This document shows, in pieces, positions 6,464 to 12,905 of a stretch of DNA of 14,027 nucleotides. Positions within the stretch are counted from its first letter, which is position 1; each line of letters begins with the position of its first letter. The notes below the pieces were generated by a model. That model ran no database searches and was not told the origin of the DNA. It worked only from the letters and a program-made list of their open reading frames with translations. The stretch comes from a bacterium (GTDB taxonomy: Bacteria > NPL-UPA2 > JAGMAN01): the NCBI GenBank assembly GCA_023130215.1, contig JAGMAN010000053.1, positions 1 to 14,027 of the forward strand, given 5' to 3'. The position numbers and the translations under genes are program-made.

Positions 6464-6479
6464 AACAATGGAGGTAATC

Positions 6480-6773
6480 ATGCCACGTTCAAAGAATAGT
6501 CAGTCGAAGCATGACAAGGCTGTTCGTGTTAGAGCGAAGAAGCTTGAGTCACAGGGATTCAAGGTCAAAGCGGATATACCTGGTTTCGAACAACCGCCAA
6601 CAATTCGCAAGTTCCGACCCGATATCCTTGCGACCAGGCGAAAACAAAAGAGAATTGAGGAGATCGAAACCAAGGATTCTGTGGACAGTGCCAGAGACCT
6701 GAAACAGCAACAGGCGTTCAAACAGTCAGCGAAAGCAAGCAAGAACACAACGTTCAAGAGAGACACTGTCTAA
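6480..6773 (+). CDS. Small PD-(D/E)XK-like protein in a cassette-like setting
   Basis: A 97-residue basic protein. The motif FRPDI (P47-D48) followed by IETK (E63-T64-K65) spells a PD-(D/E)XK nuclease core, preceded by a helix and the strand GFKVKADI. The tail (DLKQQQAF..., then KNTTFKRDTV) fits small uncharacterised members of this fold that I recall as hypothetical proteins. The preferred start is 6480 because GGAGGT (6470-6475) lies just before it; an ATG at 6468 would add four residues but destroys the SD spacing. The stop TAA overlaps a GTCTAAC box. Two candidate promoters lie upstream and an attC-like hairpin downstream. The activity is unknown: it could be a nuclease or a non-catalytic relative. 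Confidence 0.7.
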   Translation: MPRSKNSQSKHDKAVRVRAKKLESQGFKVKADIPGFEQPPTIRKFRPDILATRRKQKRIEEIETKDSVDSARDLKQQQAFKQSAKASKNTTFKRDTV

Positions 6774-7048: not shown

Positions 7049-7489
7049 ATGCTTAAATGTAAAGATGTTGCAGATTATATTTTAAAGCTAAGCGATCCGG
7101 AGATTGGAGATATAATCTCTAATTTAAAACTGCAAAAATTATTATATTATTGTCAGGGTTTTCACCTCGCCTTATACAATAAACCATTATTCAAAGAAGA
7201 TGTTTGTGCATGGGCTCACGGGCCTGTCGTGCCGGAAATGTATCGGAAATATAAAGATTATGGAGAACATGGTATTGACCCACCTGAATCGATTAAAGTT
7301 TCAGCATTTACGGAAAAACAAGAGGATTTAATAAAAGAGGTCTACAAGGTTTATGGCCAGTTTTCAGCATGGAAGTTGAGGAATTTTACTCACACTGACC
7401 CCACCTGGAAAGATACCCCCAAAGATGAAATTATTTCTCACAATAGAATGAAAAAATACTTTAAGACGTTACTCAAAACTAATGACTAA
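7049..7489 (+). CDS. DUF4065/Panacea (GepA/SocA-like) antitoxin
   Basis: A 146-aa protein with the family core: an N-terminal helix (KDVADYILKLSD), the signature NLKLQKLLYYCQGFHLALYN, then WAHGPVVPEMYRKYKDYG, and a C-terminal helical part with TDPTWKDT. Panacea-domain proteins are antitoxins that neutralise diverse small toxins, usually encoded next to them; the SocA relative acts as a proteolytic adaptor. At this length the protein is a minimal Panacea domain without a DNA-binding extension. It has its own strong promoter and SD, and its 3' end overlaps the next gene by 8 nt, the arrangement expected of a toxin-antitoxin operon. It is clearly AT-richer than the por genes, suggesting acquisition. 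Confidence 0.85.
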   Translation: MLKCKDVADYILKLSDPEIGDIISNLKLQKLLYYCQGFHLALYNKPLFKEDVCAWAHGPVVPEMYRKYKDYGEHGIDPPESIKVSAFTEKQEDLIKEVYKVYGQFSAWKLRNFTHTDPTWKDTPKDEIISHNRMKKYFKTLLKTND

Positions 7490-7898
7490 TTTTAGGCCAA
7501 GGTCTCTATCAAGGGGGAATAAATTAAAATTATCTAAAGATGTAAGACCTATACCCAAATTTGAACATCCCATTTTTTGTTTTAAGTATCTAAGAGAGAA
7601 GAAGCATGGTTTAAAGCAGTGCACCATAAAGGAAAAAGAGAAACTGCTTCATAGGTTACATAAATTAAGCCAAATGACTTGGCGGGATATTCAGTTTGCT
7701 CCTAAACATGGGTTGGGTTCTGAAAAAATAGCACGTAAGGCACTGCCAAGTATATCGTTACCTGATATTATTACCCCAGATGTTAATTTCTATGCTATAA
7801 GATTTGATGGACCAAAACCAATGATAGGTTTTAGGACAGACTATGTTTTTCATATTGTTTTTTTAGACACAAAGATGAAAGCCTATAAGCATTATTAA
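7482..7898 (+). CDS. Candidate toxin paired with the Panacea antitoxin
   Basis: 138 aa, basic, read 8 nt inside the end of the antitoxin gene, so translation is probably coupled. I do not recognise a named family. Visible features are an N-terminal basic stretch, the helix KEKEKLLHRLHKLSQMTW, the segment HGLGSEKI, then a beta-rich C-terminal half (VNFYAIRFDGPKPMIGFR, VFHIVFLDTKMKAYKHY) ending only three residues after Y-K-H. The pattern of an FR-x-G-x-x-x-x-x-GFR hairpin followed by a VFH-x-x-F-D strand recalls small toxins that act on RNA or translation, but no catalytic residue can be assigned. The toxin role is inferred from partner, size and overlap. Downstream, 7899-7968 holds no feature I can support. 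Confidence 0.6.
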   Translation: MTNFRPRSLSRGNKLKLSKDVRPIPKFEHPIFCFKYLREKKHGLKQCTIKEKEKLLHRLHKLSQMTWRDIQFAPKHGLGSEKIARKALPSISLPDIITPDVNFYAIRFDGPKPMIGFRTDYVFHIVFLDTKMKAYKHY

Positions 7899-7968
7899 CT
7901 TACAGCTTGATTTTTTCCATAGTTAATGGCTCCCAAATTCTAGTTCCCGTCTCACGATCTCTATAGTC

Positions 7969-9204
7969 TTACCGAATACAATCCACGGTTCCCAGAAAAA
8001 GAATTTGTAGGCTCCGCCCGCTTGAGCGGGCTCGGTGCTCGGACTTCATCGGATAAATCTGGATTCCGTTCCCTGCGCTCCAAGCCTGCCCCCCTTCCAA
8101 AACAAATTTTGGCTGGCGGCAAATTGGTAAATTAACGAGATATTCACCTAAAATCTTTGCCAGCCGAACTGGTACAGCGTTGCCTATTTGCATAGCCATA
8201 TTTCCGAACATGCCAAAGAATTCGTAGTCCTCCGGAAATGTTTGGAGGAAGGCAGCTTCTCTTAGTGAAATAGCTCTAAGTTGGATAGGATGGCCGAATC
8301 TACCGTTTGATATGCTGGTGCACCTACATGTTAGAGTCGGACTCGGAGCATCCCACTTCATTCTTCCGTAAACGTCTTTGTGTCCAGTATGGTCCACATG
8401 GCAATTCAGTATGAGTTCCTTAGGCCATGCCGTACGAGAACCACCGTTTTTCGGAACATGTGATAATCTTTTACGATTTATGTCTCTCATGTTAGCGCAT
8501 TCATGATTTGGTACACTTTTATGCCGCTGTCCAGCACGCAAACGCGGCAGGTGAGCTATTGCATTACGAACTGTTTTGTACGGTAAAAGGCCTTTCCCGT
8601 ATATCCTGTCAGGAAAAACAACTTTGCCTGCGTACAATTCCTTGCGTACAGCAAGCATGATAAAGCGCCTTCTGGTTTGCGGAACTCCGTAATGTTTCGC
8701 GTCAATTACATCAGCTTTGTAGTTATAACCGAGATTAGCCATAAGTCTGAGAAATTTTTTAAGAATTCTACCATTATCTATCTTGTATATCCGCGGTACA
8801 TTTTCAAGTAGCAGAAAATCGGGTTTTCTCTGAAATTCTGTCAAAATGCGTCCGACTTCTAGCAGTAAAGATTTTCTTCGATCGTAACGATGATTGTTGA
8901 TATGTCTGCTGAAAGGTTGGCATGGTGCACATGCAGCCATTAAGAACAGTTCAGTTGGCTTAATATCCAAGTTGCGTTCTAAGTCATTGCCGTTTAATGT
9001 TCTAACATCGGCACGATAGAAGATGGCCGGCTTGTTATTGTGCTCATAGCTTCTTCTGAAGCTATCATCGAAATCTATGCCCATCTTCACTTCTATGCCA
9101 GCATCTAAAAGGCCTCTCGTAAGACCTCCAGCTCCACAGAAGAGATCTATGGCTATTATTTTCTTCCTTGTACTTTCAGTGCTTTCTGCACCTTCGCAAC
9201 ACAT
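7969..9204 (-). CDS. C5-cytosine DNA methyltransferase (Dcm family) of a restriction locus
   Basis: Transfers methyl from S-adenosylmethionine to C5 of cytosine in a specific DNA site. Ordered motifs: I DLFCGAGGL (20-28), IV PCQPFS (94-99) with catalytic C95, VI ENVPR (134-138), VIII QTRRR (176-180), then a target-recognition region of about 100 residues, and X GNAVP (341-345). The last conserved helix ends near residue 359. The remaining 50 residues have no family look and are partly encoded by a GC-rich palindrome at 8016-8031. The 5' end overlaps the Vsr-like gene by 49 nt; a weak GGAG lies about 10 nt before the ATG. It is the last gene of the four-gene minus-strand operon starting at 12305. 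The recognition sequence cannot be read from the protein. Confidence 0.93.
   Translation of the reverse strand: MCCEGAESTESTRKKIIAIDLFCGAGGLTRGLLDAGIEVKMGIDFDDSFRRSYEHNNKPAIFYRADVRTLNGNDLERNLDIKPTELFLMAACAPCQPFSRHINNHRYDRRKSLLLEVGRILTEFQRKPDFLLLENVPRIYKIDNGRILKKFLRLMANLGYNYKADVIDAKHYGVPQTRRRFIMLAVRKELYAGKVVFPDRIYGKGLLPYKTVRNAIAHLPRLRAGQRHKSVPNHECANMRDINRKRLSHVPKNGGSRTAWPKELILNCHVDHTGHKDVYGRMKWDAPSPTLTCRCTSISNGRFGHPIQLRAISLREAAFLQTFPEDYEFFGMFGNMAMQIGNAVPVRLAKILGEYLVNLPICRQPKFVLEGGQAWSAGNGIQIYPMKSEHRARSSGRSLQILFLGTVDCIR
8016..8031. repeat. Perfect GC-rich palindrome within the methyltransferase 3' end
   Basis: GCCCGCTTGAGCGGGC, two 7-bp arms around TG. Similar short GC-rich palindromes occur at 12404-12418 (CCCGCTGGAGGCGGG) and 12571-12592 (CCGCCGCCCCAGCGGGCGG core) in the AT-rich intergenic region upstream of this operon. 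They look like members of a dispersed palindromic family; this one has been absorbed into coding sequence. Confidence 0.5.
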
Positions 9205-9578
9205 TTTTGCACATCTCCATCAAGCTGAAAATCCCAAAATCTTATTACTATCCACCCGTTTTTCTTTAACTTTTTATTTACCTCTTTATCTCTGGCAATA
9301 TTGCGTGATATTTTTTTTACCCAAAACCTTTTGTTGCTTTTAAAGTTATGGCGCTTAGTGCTCATATTCCTGTAGCCATGCCAGAAAGAACTATCGCAGA
9401 AAACAGCGGTTTTGTATTTACTCCAAGAGAAATCAGGCTTTCCTATAATATTGTTGGCATTTTTTCTGTATCCCCTCAAATCATATCTCCATAAGGTCCT
9501 TGACATTGTTTTTTCAATTTCAGAACCAGAAGATTTTATTTTCGACATATTGAATGAAATTATAGCTTTTGAGCGCAT
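9156..9578 (-). CDS. Very short patch repair (Vsr)-type endonuclease
   Basis: 140 aa. In its family Vsr nicks 5' of the T in T:G mismatches that arise from deaminated 5-methylcytosine, and it has the PD-(D/E)XK-related fold. Correspondences with E. coli Vsr seen by eye: MSKIKSSGSEIEK with E22 matching the active-site Glu, GKPDF with D49 matching D51, FCDSSFWHG with W66 and H67, FWVKKISRNIARD, and NGWIVIRFWD. The N-terminus is about ten residues shorter than usual before MSKIKS, so the ATG at 9578 is plausible although its SD is weak. It sits directly upstream of the C5 methyltransferase, overlapping by 49 nt. Either repair of methylation damage or the cutting role of the locus is possible; the ATPase partner favours considering the second. 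Confidence 0.88.
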   Translation of the reverse strand: MRSKAIISFNMSKIKSSGSEIEKTMSRTLWRYDLRGYRKNANNIIGKPDFSWSKYKTAVFCDSSFWHGYRNMSTKRHNFKSNKRFWVKKISRNIARDKEVNKKLKKNGWIVIRFWDFQLDGDVQKCVAKVQKALKVQGRK

Positions 9579-9620
9579 AAGCCCTTGATATACCTCGCTA
9601 ACGTATATTACAATAATACA

Positions 9621-10286
9621 TTAAGCGTTGATTTTCTCAAGAATATTCGTTAGCTCTTGTTCTAGTTCCGCTTCGCTCAATACAGTAGTGTCACGATTAT
9701 GAAACTGGTCAGTAAGTGATTTTGTAGTTTCTTTAAGCCAATTCTTTTTAAAAGACGATCGTAATTTATCACTTTGCTTTCCAAGCCATACAAAAATTCT
9801 TTCGTCTCTTTTTATGGCTAAATCAAAAAATCTCTGCCAAGATGACCAATCGCCGCCAGATTCTACTATGTCCCACGGCACCTTCGCCAATTTATAACAA
9901 TACGCGAAAAAGCTTGTTTTTGGCCGATTGTTTGCTCGCTCGTCCGGTGTCCCCGGGGCAAGGTCCTGCGCATGATCAAAAAGTGCTCTCCAAATGTATT
10001 TCTTGTCGTCTGGATGTAGGACTTTTGGATCATCTACGAAACTAAGTCTTTTTCCTAGCTCATATCTGAGTTTTAAAATGTATTCTCTTTTCTTTTTATT
10101 TTGATCAAGTAGGCCCATGTCATGAAGCTTCTTGCGGATTTCATTCATCTTATCTTTCAGGAATATATCAAGTCTATCAGCTTCATGAGCCATTTCTTTT
10201 GTTACGAATCTGTCAGACTTATATACCTTTGTTCCTGCTACGGATTTACCGCCCAGGATCCGTGTTTCTCTTATAATTACAGCCAT
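9621..10286 (-). CDS. Unrecognised 221-aa protein of the GHKL-ATPase/methyltransferase operon
   Basis: I do not recognise the family. The sequence is strongly charged and mainly helical by eye. Residues 28-85 form Lys/Glu-rich helices (MAHEADRLDIFLKDKMNEIRKK and on). Then comes a more conserved-looking centre, HPDDKKYIWRALFDHAQDLAP, followed by TSFFAYCYKLAKVPWDIV and GGDWSSWQRFFDLAIK with several tryptophans, and an acidic C-terminal helix. There is no signal peptide, membrane segment or cysteine cluster. Its ATG follows the ATPase stop with no gap, and GGAGGAGG in the last ATPase codons serves as its SD, so translation is coupled. That tight linkage suggests a physical partner or specificity subunit of the ATPase. 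This is inference only. Confidence 0.85.
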   Translation of the reverse strand: MAVIIRETRILGGKSVAGTKVYKSDRFVTKEMAHEADRLDIFLKDKMNEIRKKLHDMGLLDQNKKKREYILKLRYELGKRLSFVDDPKVLHPDDKKYIWRALFDHAQDLAPGTPDERANNRPKTSFFAYCYKLAKVPWDIVESGGDWSSWQRFFDLAIKRDERIFVWLGKQSDKLRSSFKKNWLKETTKSLTDQFHNRDTTVLSEAELEQELTNILEKINA

Positions 10287-12305
10287 TTAGCCTCCTCCTG
10301 ATACAATACCAGAAATATAGGCATATAATATCTTACCTTGCAGCAAAGATATTTTCTTCGCTAGTTGCTCCGGATCGCTTATCTCTTCTTGTGTAAATAT
10401 CTTTTGCTGATGACTACGAAGTACTACCCTGGGTATTTCATCCGCCATGATGCGGACCAGATAACCTGTTAATTCATCACCGTCATTATTAACTGCATAT
10501 GCTGGATGATCCTTGTTGTATTGGAATATGTATCCTTGGTCCGTACCAGATACGGCTTCGCCCATTATCGTCATCAAATCTTCATCATCTCCATAAGAAA
10601 TAGCTTCACACTTTTCAAAAAGACCCGTTTCGGGCGGATCTTCTTCTAAATAAAACGCCCTGGCAACTTTATGTAGTTCAGCGCCCTTTTTTTGACTGGG
10701 AACAGAAATAGCGACCATTCTTGCTCTTACTATATATCTTCCAGAGGTAGGAAACTTAGTTTTAGTAATTTCCAAATCTAAAGGATTTATGGTAAGGGCG
10801 CTCTTGCTTTGAATCTCAACATTAGAATCGCATAGGTGCGGTCCTATCTGCATATCTCCTTTAACAATGTACATTTTCAAATTTACTACTATTTTATCCT
10901 TTGTATCATTAACTGCAACAAGTTCTCCGCCTTTTAGATGCTCTCCATAGTTGAGCCTACGTATATTTCTAGGAAATGTAAAATCCGACATTTCTAGTCG
11001 TAAGAGTTTTCTTGGCGGTGGCGGCGGTGGCGGCGGTGGCGGCGGAGGTATAGTAATTCCTGTCAGTCCCATCTTTTTCAGTATTCTATTAACGGCGTAT
11101 ATTGCTTTTCGCTCTGCATCAGACTGCATCTGCTTTTTGCGGTCTTCGGGGCTTACGCCTATTCCTAGCTTTTCCCTTGCAAACCTCTCAAGCTCATCTT
11201 CTATCTTGTGCCTAACCGCAGCCGGTACAGATTTTCTAAAACTAAAACCATAATGGTCTGGGTCCTCTTCCTTCTGTATAGCTTGCTCGAGTTCCTTATC
11301 AAAGCTAACATAACCATATATAGAATTTGTTATGTTGGCGGGCACATAACGTATTGGTATAGAACATATCTTCATGCCTCCGCGCTGTATGGCAACTCCG
11401 TGCAAGTCCTCCGGAACTTCTTTTTTTAAGCTGCAGACAAAATGCAGATGCTTTATTCTATACTCTTTCCTGCCTACCCTGACCTTCTCATTATCCTTTT
11501 TCCATATAGTGAAAGAGGTGCTATCTTTATCATAAAGGACAAATTCTTTCGGCGCTTTTGCGGTTTTTTTGGTTTTACCATCGATTGTATATATTTTTAC
11601 ATCACATTTCGCAATTATTTCCCACCAAGTTTCCTCTATATATCGCAGAAAGCTTTCAGATTTATAGTCATCGATAAATTCCTTTACGGGATTGACAATA
11701 ATAATTCTTGTGCCTACTTTATCAAGAGGCTTTAATGTTTTTTTAGTATACTCTACTAATTTTTTTCTCCCTTCGTCGTCATCGAAGCAGTTGATTTTTG
11801 AATCGGTTAATTCTATAGTGCGAAATCCAAGTCTATAAGAGCCGTCGGGTTTTAAAGTGTCATATAATATTACATAATTTTCCGATGCTCCAACAAAAAT
11901 GAATTTACCCCTACCTCTAGCGCCAAGTGCTTCTTCTTCGGGGCTTTTTGTGAATGCAACATTTTCAAATCTCCCCCAGCGTTCTTCGATAGGCAGGTCT
12001 GTTTCTAATTCTTCGGGCTGGAGAACTCGTCCGGTCAAACCTGTCGTCCCTGAGTCCGTCATCGTAAAATATGTATTCTTGTCCTTGCCCTTTATAAGCT
12101 CGAATTTCATCAACCAGTTTTTTGCATGACGTTTATCCGTTCTTGCATCCCATCCGTTTTGAATGGCATCTTTCTGAACACCATGGCTTATGCTATGGCG
12201 AGCACTATAACTATCTACTATCTCTTTAACCTTATTTTTCCAATTCGTAACTGTAGATCTTGAAGAACTAATGTCAGCTTTGGGGATCAACGTATTAATA
12301 GTCAT
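10287..12305 (-). CDS. MORC/MutL-like GHKL ATPase of a restriction system
   Basis: 672 aa. The N-terminal GHKL (Bergerat) ATPase fold is shown by the N-box QKDAIQNGWDA (44-54; D46, N50, D53), the G1 box TDSGTTG (83-89) and the G2 box GARGRGKF (128-135). A middle region of about 250 residues is compatible with the S5-like transducer of MORC/MutL/Hsp90 relatives. A run of 12 prolines (420-431) then links to a beta-rich C-terminal half (about 435-672) that I cannot name. Such ATPases next to C5 methyltransferases and Vsr-like nucleases were described as restriction components by Iyer, Abhiman and Aravind (2008; cited from memory). By analogy it would dimerise on ATP binding and clamp DNA. First gene of the operon, with AAGGAG (12313-12318) 7 nt before the ATG. 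Confidence 0.88.
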   Translation of the reverse strand: MTINTLIPKADISSSRSTVTNWKNKVKEIVDSYSARHSISHGVQKDAIQNGWDARTDKRHAKNWLMKFELIKGKDKNTYFTMTDSGTTGLTGRVLQPEELETDLPIEERWGRFENVAFTKSPEEEALGARGRGKFIFVGASENYVILYDTLKPDGSYRLGFRTIELTDSKINCFDDDEGRKKLVEYTKKTLKPLDKVGTRIIIVNPVKEFIDDYKSESFLRYIEETWWEIIAKCDVKIYTIDGKTKKTAKAPKEFVLYDKDSTSFTIWKKDNEKVRVGRKEYRIKHLHFVCSLKKEVPEDLHGVAIQRGGMKICSIPIRYVPANITNSIYGYVSFDKELEQAIQKEEDPDHYGFSFRKSVPAAVRHKIEDELERFAREKLGIGVSPEDRKKQMQSDAERKAIYAVNRILKKMGLTGITIPPPPPPPPPPPPRKLLRLEMSDFTFPRNIRRLNYGEHLKGGELVAVNDTKDKIVVNLKMYIVKGDMQIGPHLCDSNVEIQSKSALTINPLDLEITKTKFPTSGRYIVRARMVAISVPSQKKGAELHKVARAFYLEEDPPETGLFEKCEAISYGDDEDLMTIMGEAVSGTDQGYIFQYNKDHPAYAVNNDGDELTGYLVRIMADEIPRVVLRSHQQKIFTQEEISDPEQLAKKISLLQGKILYAYISGIVSGGG
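11013..11048 (-). repeat. Poly-proline codon tract, 9-nt tandem repeat
   Basis: Twelve consecutive Pro codons encoded on the minus strand. On the plus strand this reads as a 9-nt unit (TGGCGGCGG type) repeated about three times with partial copies. It is a pure GC-rich tract in an AT-rich gene and a likely site of length change by slippage; any change of 9 nt keeps the frame. Confidence 0.85.
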
Positions 12306-12312
12306 ATTTATT

Positions 12313-12381
12313 CTCCTTTACATACAATAATTTTATTTTATTAACTCCCCGATATTATACCATATCCAGAATTACTTGCAA
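12313..12381 (-). promoter_or_regulatory. Promoter and ribosome site of the defence operon
   Basis: On the minus strand: -35 TTGCAA (12376-12381), a 16-nt spacer and -10 TATAAT (12354-12359) with TGG directly before it (extended -10). A leader of about 40 nt follows, AT-rich, with AAGGAG at 12313-12318. No GACT/AGTC C-box is present here, so the XRE regulator at 13466 is unlikely to act on this promoter through such a box. Confidence 0.7.
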
Positions 12382-12688
12382 GCATTTTTTGAAGATTTCG
12401 GCTTCCCGCTGGAGGCGGGGCGGACGAGACCGAGCAAAAAATAATTCCTTTTGAAAAAATTCGTTCGGCGCGCTCTTAAAAACAGATTTTTGCGAGGATG
12501 ACACTCCCCTGATTTCTTCGAAATCAAAGATGGGGAGGGCAGGTGACGCAGAGTGATATGGCTCACTTTGCCGCCGCCCCAGCGGGCGGTGGCATTATTG
12601 AAGATTTCTTTTCTTACATTGATGGATAGTATTCGGTAAAACTATTGGAATAGTTCGTTGAAATTTCAGATCTGGAGCCAGTCTTGAT
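12382..12688. repeat. Non-coding region with palindromes and a direct repeat
   Basis: No gene is supported here. An imperfect direct repeat, GCATTTTTTGAAGATTTC (12382-12399) and GCATTATTGAAGATTTC (12592-12608), brackets about 190 nt. Within or near it are three palindromes: CCCGC-TGGA-GGCGG near 12404-12419, TGATTTC-TTC-GAAATCA near 12510-12527, and GCCGCCGCCC-CAGC-GGGCGGTGGC ending at about 12593. None is followed by a U-run, so they are not convincing terminators. They look like small mobile or palindromic repeats settled in spacer DNA. Confidence 0.4.
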
Positions 12689-12725
12689 AACCCCGCTTAT
12701 CTTTATGGATAGGCGGGGTTTTTTT
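12689..12725 (+). terminator. Strong intrinsic terminator (plus strand)
   Basis: AACCCCGC-TTATC pairs with GATAG-GCGGGGTT, a 13-bp stem with one wobble pair around the loop TTTATG, followed by a run of T to 12725. It is oriented for plus-strand transcription but no plus-strand gene precedes it. It overlaps the broken 3' end of the recombinase on the minus strand, suggesting it was brought in by rearrangement. Confidence 0.75.
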
Positions 12726-12905
12726 GGAAGAGGCCGAAAAGAACCACCCCACCATTCCACATTCCCTTTTGAGCACGCTGGAGCATTTTGTCTTTTGTTC
12801 GTTCAGATGTAAGCTCTCTCTCAAATTGAGCAAAGGTCAACATAATATTCCTGAGAAGCCCGCCTGATTGTCCGTACTTACTCTTATATAAATAGCACAT
12901 TTCAT
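12703..12905 (-). pseudogene. Serine recombinase remnant with internal deletion
   Basis: From ATG 12905, preceded by GGAGGTG (12911-12917), the frame reads MKCAIYIRVSTDNQ. This is the catalytic N-terminus of a large serine recombinase, with the active Ser in RVST. That frame stops soon after. In another frame, from about 12865 down, it continues as GGLLRNIMLTFAQFERELTSERTKDKMLQRAQKGMWNGG, the conserved end of the catalytic domain and linker helix, which normally lies about 90-100 residues later. So most of the catalytic domain has been deleted with a frameshift. The gene then breaks off after GGVVLFG into terminator sequence, losing the whole DNA-binding part. It cannot be active. Confidence 0.8.

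Follow-up and report, generated by a model that had tools for sequence, protein, structure and literature searches.

A paraMORC-type ATPase and its near-constant partner protein in a candidate methylation-guarded defence operon of an NPL-UPA2 bacterium

Prokaryotic MORC and paraMORC ATPases were predicted in 2008 by Iyer, Abhiman and Aravind to belong to restriction-type operons (PMC2292703). The paraMORC2 type combines GHKL and S5 domains, carries an ExxxH motif at the end of S5, has a patchy bacterial and archaeal distribution and neighbours DNA methylase and Vsr genes; its own features also include superfamily II (SFII) helicases, restriction endonuclease-fold (RE-fold) nucleases and a main occurrence in cyanobacteria and Gram-positives (PMC2292703). 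In VcSduA, a paraMORC3-like GHKL protein of Shedu type I-D, the ATPase is required for anti-phage activity (PMC12137116). Here we analyse a four-gene operon in a 14,027-nucleotide (nt) contig of an NPL-UPA2 bacterium (JAGMAN010000053.1; hereafter the window), which encodes a GHKL ATPase, a 221-amino-acid (aa) protein (hereafter U), a Vsr endonuclease and a C5-cytosine DNA methyltransferase. A preliminary description of the window had linked this operon to the restriction-type operons predicted in 2008, a link that our results uphold, and had proposed Vsr as the nuclease that cuts. Our analysis instead favours, with a probability of about 0.6, a mobile, methylation-guarded, paraMORC-type defence operon of two modules, with the ATPase–U pair as its effector.

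The two modules emerge from a comparison of ATPase loci. Single-protein scans with the ATPase or U against plasmids, phages, viral sequences and genome contigs returned no relatives. A whole-genome search gave two ATPase homologues, one of them followed directly by a 209-aa relative of U (BLASTP 7e-9). An alignment of these two guided a scan across 85,000 species genomes, which yielded 33 ATPase loci. After removal of duplicates and one fragment, 33 distinct loci remained, including the window. Two artificial alignment rows used in a motif-steered scan shaped search patterns only, and three matches of a DNA pattern scan were judged to be chance; neither is used as evidence. The loci span Chloroflexota, Atribacterota, Ignavibacteriota, Patescibacteria, Omnitrophota, metagenome-assembled genomes of Gammaproteobacteria, Asgard and DPANN archaea, and one Bacillota isolate. 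The ATPase family is rare and patchy: two further genomes were found among 400 Chloroflexota and none that was new among 388 Bacillota. Both ATPase and Vsr are absent from the eight phylum mates searched, and the ATPase, Vsr and methyltransferase are each present in the source genome (1.0 Mb) as a single copy, in the operon.

Module 1 consists of the ATPase and U. The U gene lies directly 3′ of the ATPase gene in 29 of the 33 loci (gap −50 to +33 nt), so that a lack of co-occurrence elsewhere, named in the preliminary description as a refuting outcome, is not observed for this pair. Four loci lack U: two are cut by contig ends (L028 and L038), one has a truncated ATPase (L056) and one is a real absence (L057). 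The pair can also stand alone, as in L039, L044 and L046, where no DNA-methylase motif occurs within 7–10 kb on either side; in L074 it lies between topA and xerC. Module 2 consists of the C5 methyltransferase, which is found within ∼8 kb of the ATPase in 19 of the 33 loci, and a T:G repair gene. The latter is Vsr in six loci (the window, L041, L048, L052, L054 and L060) and an HhH-GPD protein in 11. These two never occur at the same locus (Fisher p = 0.001), and either is present only together with a methyltransferase (p = 1.5e-7); both p-values assume independent loci, an assumption that holds only partly. The Vsr label requires at least four changes on the ATPase tree and therefore does not reflect a single inherited event. 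Moreover, the closest ATPase relative of the window (L029, 53%) carries a glycosylase, and the closest methyltransferase relative (L041, 42%) carries Vsr, which suggests that methyltransferase and repair gene act as a separate module. We also observed a family of ∼320–390 aa (F4) encoded directly 5′ of the ATPase in L034, L035, L048, L052, L053, L054 and L060. Two members tested gave no Pfam match, the N-terminus appears ribbon-helix-helix- or zinc-ribbon-like by eye, and F4 is likely a DNA-binding third component in this subset of loci. An AlwI-like restriction endonuclease (REase) is present only in L034 and L049 among the surveyed loci.

The window Vsr matches the Pfam profile (3.8e-18) and NCBIfam vsr TIGR00632 (100.8 bits; cut-off 97.85), and its active-site positions E22, D49, D62, H67 and D97 align to E25, D51, H64, H69 and D97. 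Asp at the H64 position is also found in V.NgoAXIII and V.Nme18VIP, which are functional neisserial Vsr proteins (PMC12907096). Zinc ligands with a structural role in E. coli Vsr are missing from the window protein. Judged from its sequence, it has the residues for T:G mismatch repair, which is its predicted activity. The methyltransferase matches DNA_methylase (2e-52) with intact DLFCGAGG, PCQ, ENV, QTRRR and GNAVP motifs, and a C5 methyltransferase adjoins Vsr directly in five of the six Vsr loci and is linked to it in all six. For the HhH-GPD protein, the best match in the PDB is Mig.MthI (1kea, 6e-48), ahead of MutY and EndoIII, and all 11 HhH-GPD proteins have the Mig-type Tyr in the HhH motif (GVGxY-like). 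The same position is Lys in EndoIII and Ser in MutY. An EndoIII-type iron–sulphur motif is present in the one HhH-GPD protein tested for it. We also considered HhH-GPD proteins as base-excision restriction enzymes (PMC10273834), but the likeness to Mig.MthI and the exclusive swap with Vsr favour repair.

An interchange of Vsr and T:G glycosylase is to be expected if their common job is the repair of deaminated 5-methylcytosine. Vsr is most likely the repair partner of the methyltransferase rather than a restriction effector, because it occurs only alongside the methyltransferase, never with the glycosylase, and is swapped for the latter. A T:G repair gene is likewise found beside a 5-methylcytosine methyltransferase in Dcm–Vsr and Mig.MthI; unlike these, the window pair comes joined to a GHKL ATPase module, and within one system type either repair enzyme can stand in for the other.

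We then focused on the ATPase. Neither the ATPase alone nor U gave a meaningful match in Pfam, NCBIfam, PADLOC or PHROGs. The ATPase comprises a GHKL+S5 region (∼18–393), a coiled-coil/polyproline linker (polyproline ∼414–430), an Ig-like beta domain (∼435–555) and a helical C-terminus. The motifs Q44-K45-D46-x2-Q49-N50, D84-x-G86-x2-G89 and G128-x2-G131-x-G133-K134 are kept across the 33 relatives. An AlphaFold2 model built on 31 family members (pLDDT 84.7, pTM 0.65; predicted local confidence and predicted template modelling scores) matches, over residues 18–393, SMCHD1 (Z 22.5), MORC3 (21.9), MORC4 (21.4) and MORC2 (20.4), and more weakly Hsp90 (19.7), MutL (17.0) and TopoVI-B (16.8). By its motifs and predicted fold, the protein is a member of the GHKL+S5 superfamily, and the MORC label given to it earlier is correct at the fold level because SMCHD1 and MORC lead the model matches. 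It is not a MORC by the 2008 definitions: in the alignment of 33 relatives the S5 signature GhXhhpXXRhl (PMC2292703) is not matched by G303-V-A-I-Q-R-G-G-M311, where Met311 is invariant at the Arg position. By contrast, S5 does carry the paraMORC2-type ExxxH in its C-terminal part (E347 in 30/33 and H351 in 33/33). The catalytic Glu of the N-box (E-x3-N) is replaced by Asp46 in 33/33 members. C-terminal to S5 lie the Ig-like domain, which is repeated in seven longer family members, and a conserved N-x2-H-P motif (N597, H600 and P601). The polyproline run of the linker (11012–11048, GGCGGTGGC repeats on the plus strand) is missing from the two relatives first aligned.

U is predicted with confidence (pLDDT 90.6, pTM 0.87) to form an N-terminal beta-hairpin and a dozen helices, a fold without match in the PDB or a viral library (Foldseek/VIA best E ≥ 0.5, Z ≤ 4.5). 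It is basic (pI 9.4), as is the majority of its family (pI ∼9). In the 29-member alignment G78, W99, W147, W150 and R163 are strongly conserved and W167 less strictly; residue sets that mark metal-dependent nucleases (an acidic pair, His-Lys or HxH) are not among the conserved positions. A HEPN RNase, as in the MAE_28990 systems beside similar methyltransferases, was dropped by eye since the family alignment has no conserved RxxxxH. U is best read as a subunit through which the ATPase contacts DNA or is regulated, with an unrecognized nuclease as the main rival for its role.

The operon resembles paraMORC2 in its GHKL+S5 architecture, ExxxH motif, patchy spread and neighbours, and differs in its constant helical partner and in Asp for the N-box Glu; this comparison relies on the published description of paraMORC2. 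Neither an SFII helicase nor an RE-fold nuclease besides Vsr is found in the window operon. A distant relative of the family ATPase is PDC-M33A, a PADLOC phage defence candidate (hhalign 95%, 2.8e-8, 113 columns), although the window ATPase itself has no PADLOC match. Both carry SDSGTTGL and E-N/D-P-x-H stretches, but the PDC-M33A N-box keeps the canonical Glu (REIIQNSLDA). Its partner M33B is unrelated to U (hhalign probability 0.1%) and was not found at the surveyed ATPase–U loci. A locus in genome G387 (L084, contig C82, 1582–6152) with a C5 methyltransferase, the M33A ATPase, M33B and then a 260-aa open reading frame (ORF) shows that PDC-M33 is a methyltransferase-linked GHKL system. VcSduA is likewise a GHKL defence ATPase, and its paraMORC3-like relatives lie beside C5 methyltransferases with Vsr or HhH-GPD nearby; unlike the window family, it has its own PD-(D/E)xK nuclease domain, and the two cannot be aligned (hhalign 1.3%). 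The neighbours of paraMORC3–methyltransferase plasmids were considered as relatives and rejected by sequence. Beside such ATPase–methyltransferase pairs, Vsr and HhH-GPD also alternate (L006/L007: a haloarchaeal plasmid with HhH-GPD and a Rhizobium plasmid with Vsr). GHKL protein, C5 methylase and Vsr also occur together in two-component-system-like restriction–modification (R–M) elements with HEF_HK and Response_reg_2 domains (PMC8011034), neither of which was found in the window proteins by domain search. As for Type II R–M, the methyltransferase is present and no endonuclease other than Vsr is recognized.

Relying on these findings, we infer that the operon may work as follows: (i) the C5 methyltransferase would mark host DNA; (ii) Vsr would nick the T:G mismatches that arise from deaminated 5-methylcytosines, so that marked sites are kept; (iii) the ATPase and U would form one complex that restricts, in which ATP binding might close the ATPase dimer as a DNA clamp, by analogy with MORC, MutL and topoisomerase VI, and basic U could provide DNA contact, recognition or a damaging step; and (iv) methylation, or another self signal where the methyltransferase is unlinked, would block restriction. 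Several observations weigh against this explanation. No nuclease or other effector motif was found in the ATPase or U, the model of U matches no fold, and ATP hydrolysis may be weakened by the Asp of the N-box. Standalone ATPase–U pairs occur near housekeeping genes without an adjacent methyltransferase, and no C5 methyltransferase was found in three genomes with such pairs (G389, G392 and G393); methyl-gating is therefore perhaps not general. In addition, Vsr might contribute to restriction or addiction, because a Caulobacter Vsr-like protein (VsrA) damages DNA and elicits the SOS response in cells without the methyltransferase (PMC12907096); a secondary role of Vsr beyond repair is therefore possible.

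A tentative alternative is silencing without a nuclease, in which an ATPase–U clamp would hold foreign DNA topologically and compact it, as eukaryotic MORC and SMCHD1 do, with the N-box Asp favouring slow hydrolysis. The nearest folds (SMCHD1 and MORC), the Asp in all relatives and the failure to find a nuclease agree with it, but MORC-like compaction in bacteria is unproven, and an E-to-D change need not slow hydrolysis. In an extended form, held equally tentatively, ATPase–U would be an autonomous two-gene immunity unit that has repeatedly recruited a methyltransferase with Vsr or T:G glycosylase for self-marking. Somewhat less probable is a conventional two-part restriction enzyme, with U as a nuclease of unfamiliar fold switched on by the ATPase: U is a constant and mostly basic companion in 29 loci, and motif-less effectors have precedents, but the family alignment lacks nuclease-type residue sets and a high-confidence model matches no fold. 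It is doubtful that the locus has no defence role, being a solitary C5 methyltransferase–Vsr pair beside an unrelated chromosome-organizing ATPase pair; pairs alone between housekeeping genes and the separate histories of the two modules would fit, but the methyltransferase nearby at more than half of the loci, the patchy distribution and the similarity to PDC-M33A speak against it. Least probable is the earlier proposal that Vsr cuts unmethylated DNA when activated by the ATPase and U, as MutH/Vsr with MutL, since Vsr, although the sole recognizable nuclease in the operon, with intact catalytic positions and a DNA-damaging counterpart in Caulobacter, is lacking at 27/33 ATPase loci, follows the methyltransferase rather than the ATPase and is replaced in 11 by a Mig.MthI-type base-excision glycosylase.

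ORF calling reproduced the gene order, coordinates and junctions of the four minus-strand genes (Table 1), including the zero gap between the ATPase stop and the ATG of the U gene and the 49-nt overlap of the Vsr and methyltransferase genes. The single strong promoter proposed earlier is plausible but no more than a candidate: the region has 12 promoter-like sites versus 11.2 in shuffles, and an equal-scoring site lies directly 5′ of vsr, so that Vsr and methyltransferase are possibly transcribed separately.

An imperfect inverted repeat (arms of ∼76–81 nt, core AATAGTNTTACCGAATACNATCCA; score 54, against 41 for the best of 1000 shuffles) flanks the operon on both sides, and no second copy of it was found in 264 kb (26% sample) of the same genome. 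Directly outside its right arm lies a serine recombinase fragment (Resolvase, 4.6e-6; 12703–12900, minus strand). This suggests that the operon may be a transferred cassette with the arms as possible ends. Beside the operon, a SocA/Panacea antitoxin-like gene (5e-23) overlaps a 138-aa phrog_8366 gene (7049–7898), likely as a toxin–antitoxin pair, and a 101-aa ORF (6468–6773) matches an AHJR-like REase weakly, below the threshold (5e-4).

Table 1. Features of the operon and its borders in the window
Feature	Coordinates	Strand	Basis or remark
Imperfect inverted repeat, left arm	7954..8029	+	overlaps last codons of methyltransferase ORF
C5-cytosine DNA methyltransferase, 411 aa	7969..9204	-	Pfam DNA_methylase, motifs
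Vsr endonuclease, 140 aa	9156..9578	-	Pfam, NCBIfam, active-site positions
Candidate second promoter, TTGAGA-16-TATTAT, 5′ of vsr–methyltransferase	9613..9640	-	consensus match only, 10/12
Constant partner (U), 221 aa	9621..10286	-	conservation at loci, alignment, model
paraMORC-type GHKL+S5 ATPase, 672 aa	10287..12305	-	motifs in 33 relatives, fold
Candidate operon promoter, TTGCAA-16-TATAAT, TG before −10, ∼49 nt 5′ of ATPase	12354..12381	-	consensus match only, 10/12
Imperfect inverted repeat, right arm	12574..12654	-	brackets operon

What is chiefly new here is the near-constant ATPase–U pair, its independence from Vsr, the exchange of Vsr and T:G glycosylase and the Asp N-box, whereas the broader MORC/paraMORC methylation-associated class was already known. 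The 2008 prediction also held that eukaryotic MORC silencing proteins derive from prokaryotic MORC-type ATPases, and in the literature that we found only the nuclease-fused paraMORC3/Shedu branch of these ATPases has been tested. The ATPase–U pair offers a minimal two-gene unit, with no helicase or recognized nuclease, for a direct test of what the ATPase does to DNA. The Vsr/glycosylase exchange reveals, from genomes alone, how 5-methylcytosine-marked systems pay for deamination, and provides a rule for interpreting ‘Vsr’ genes in defence operons.

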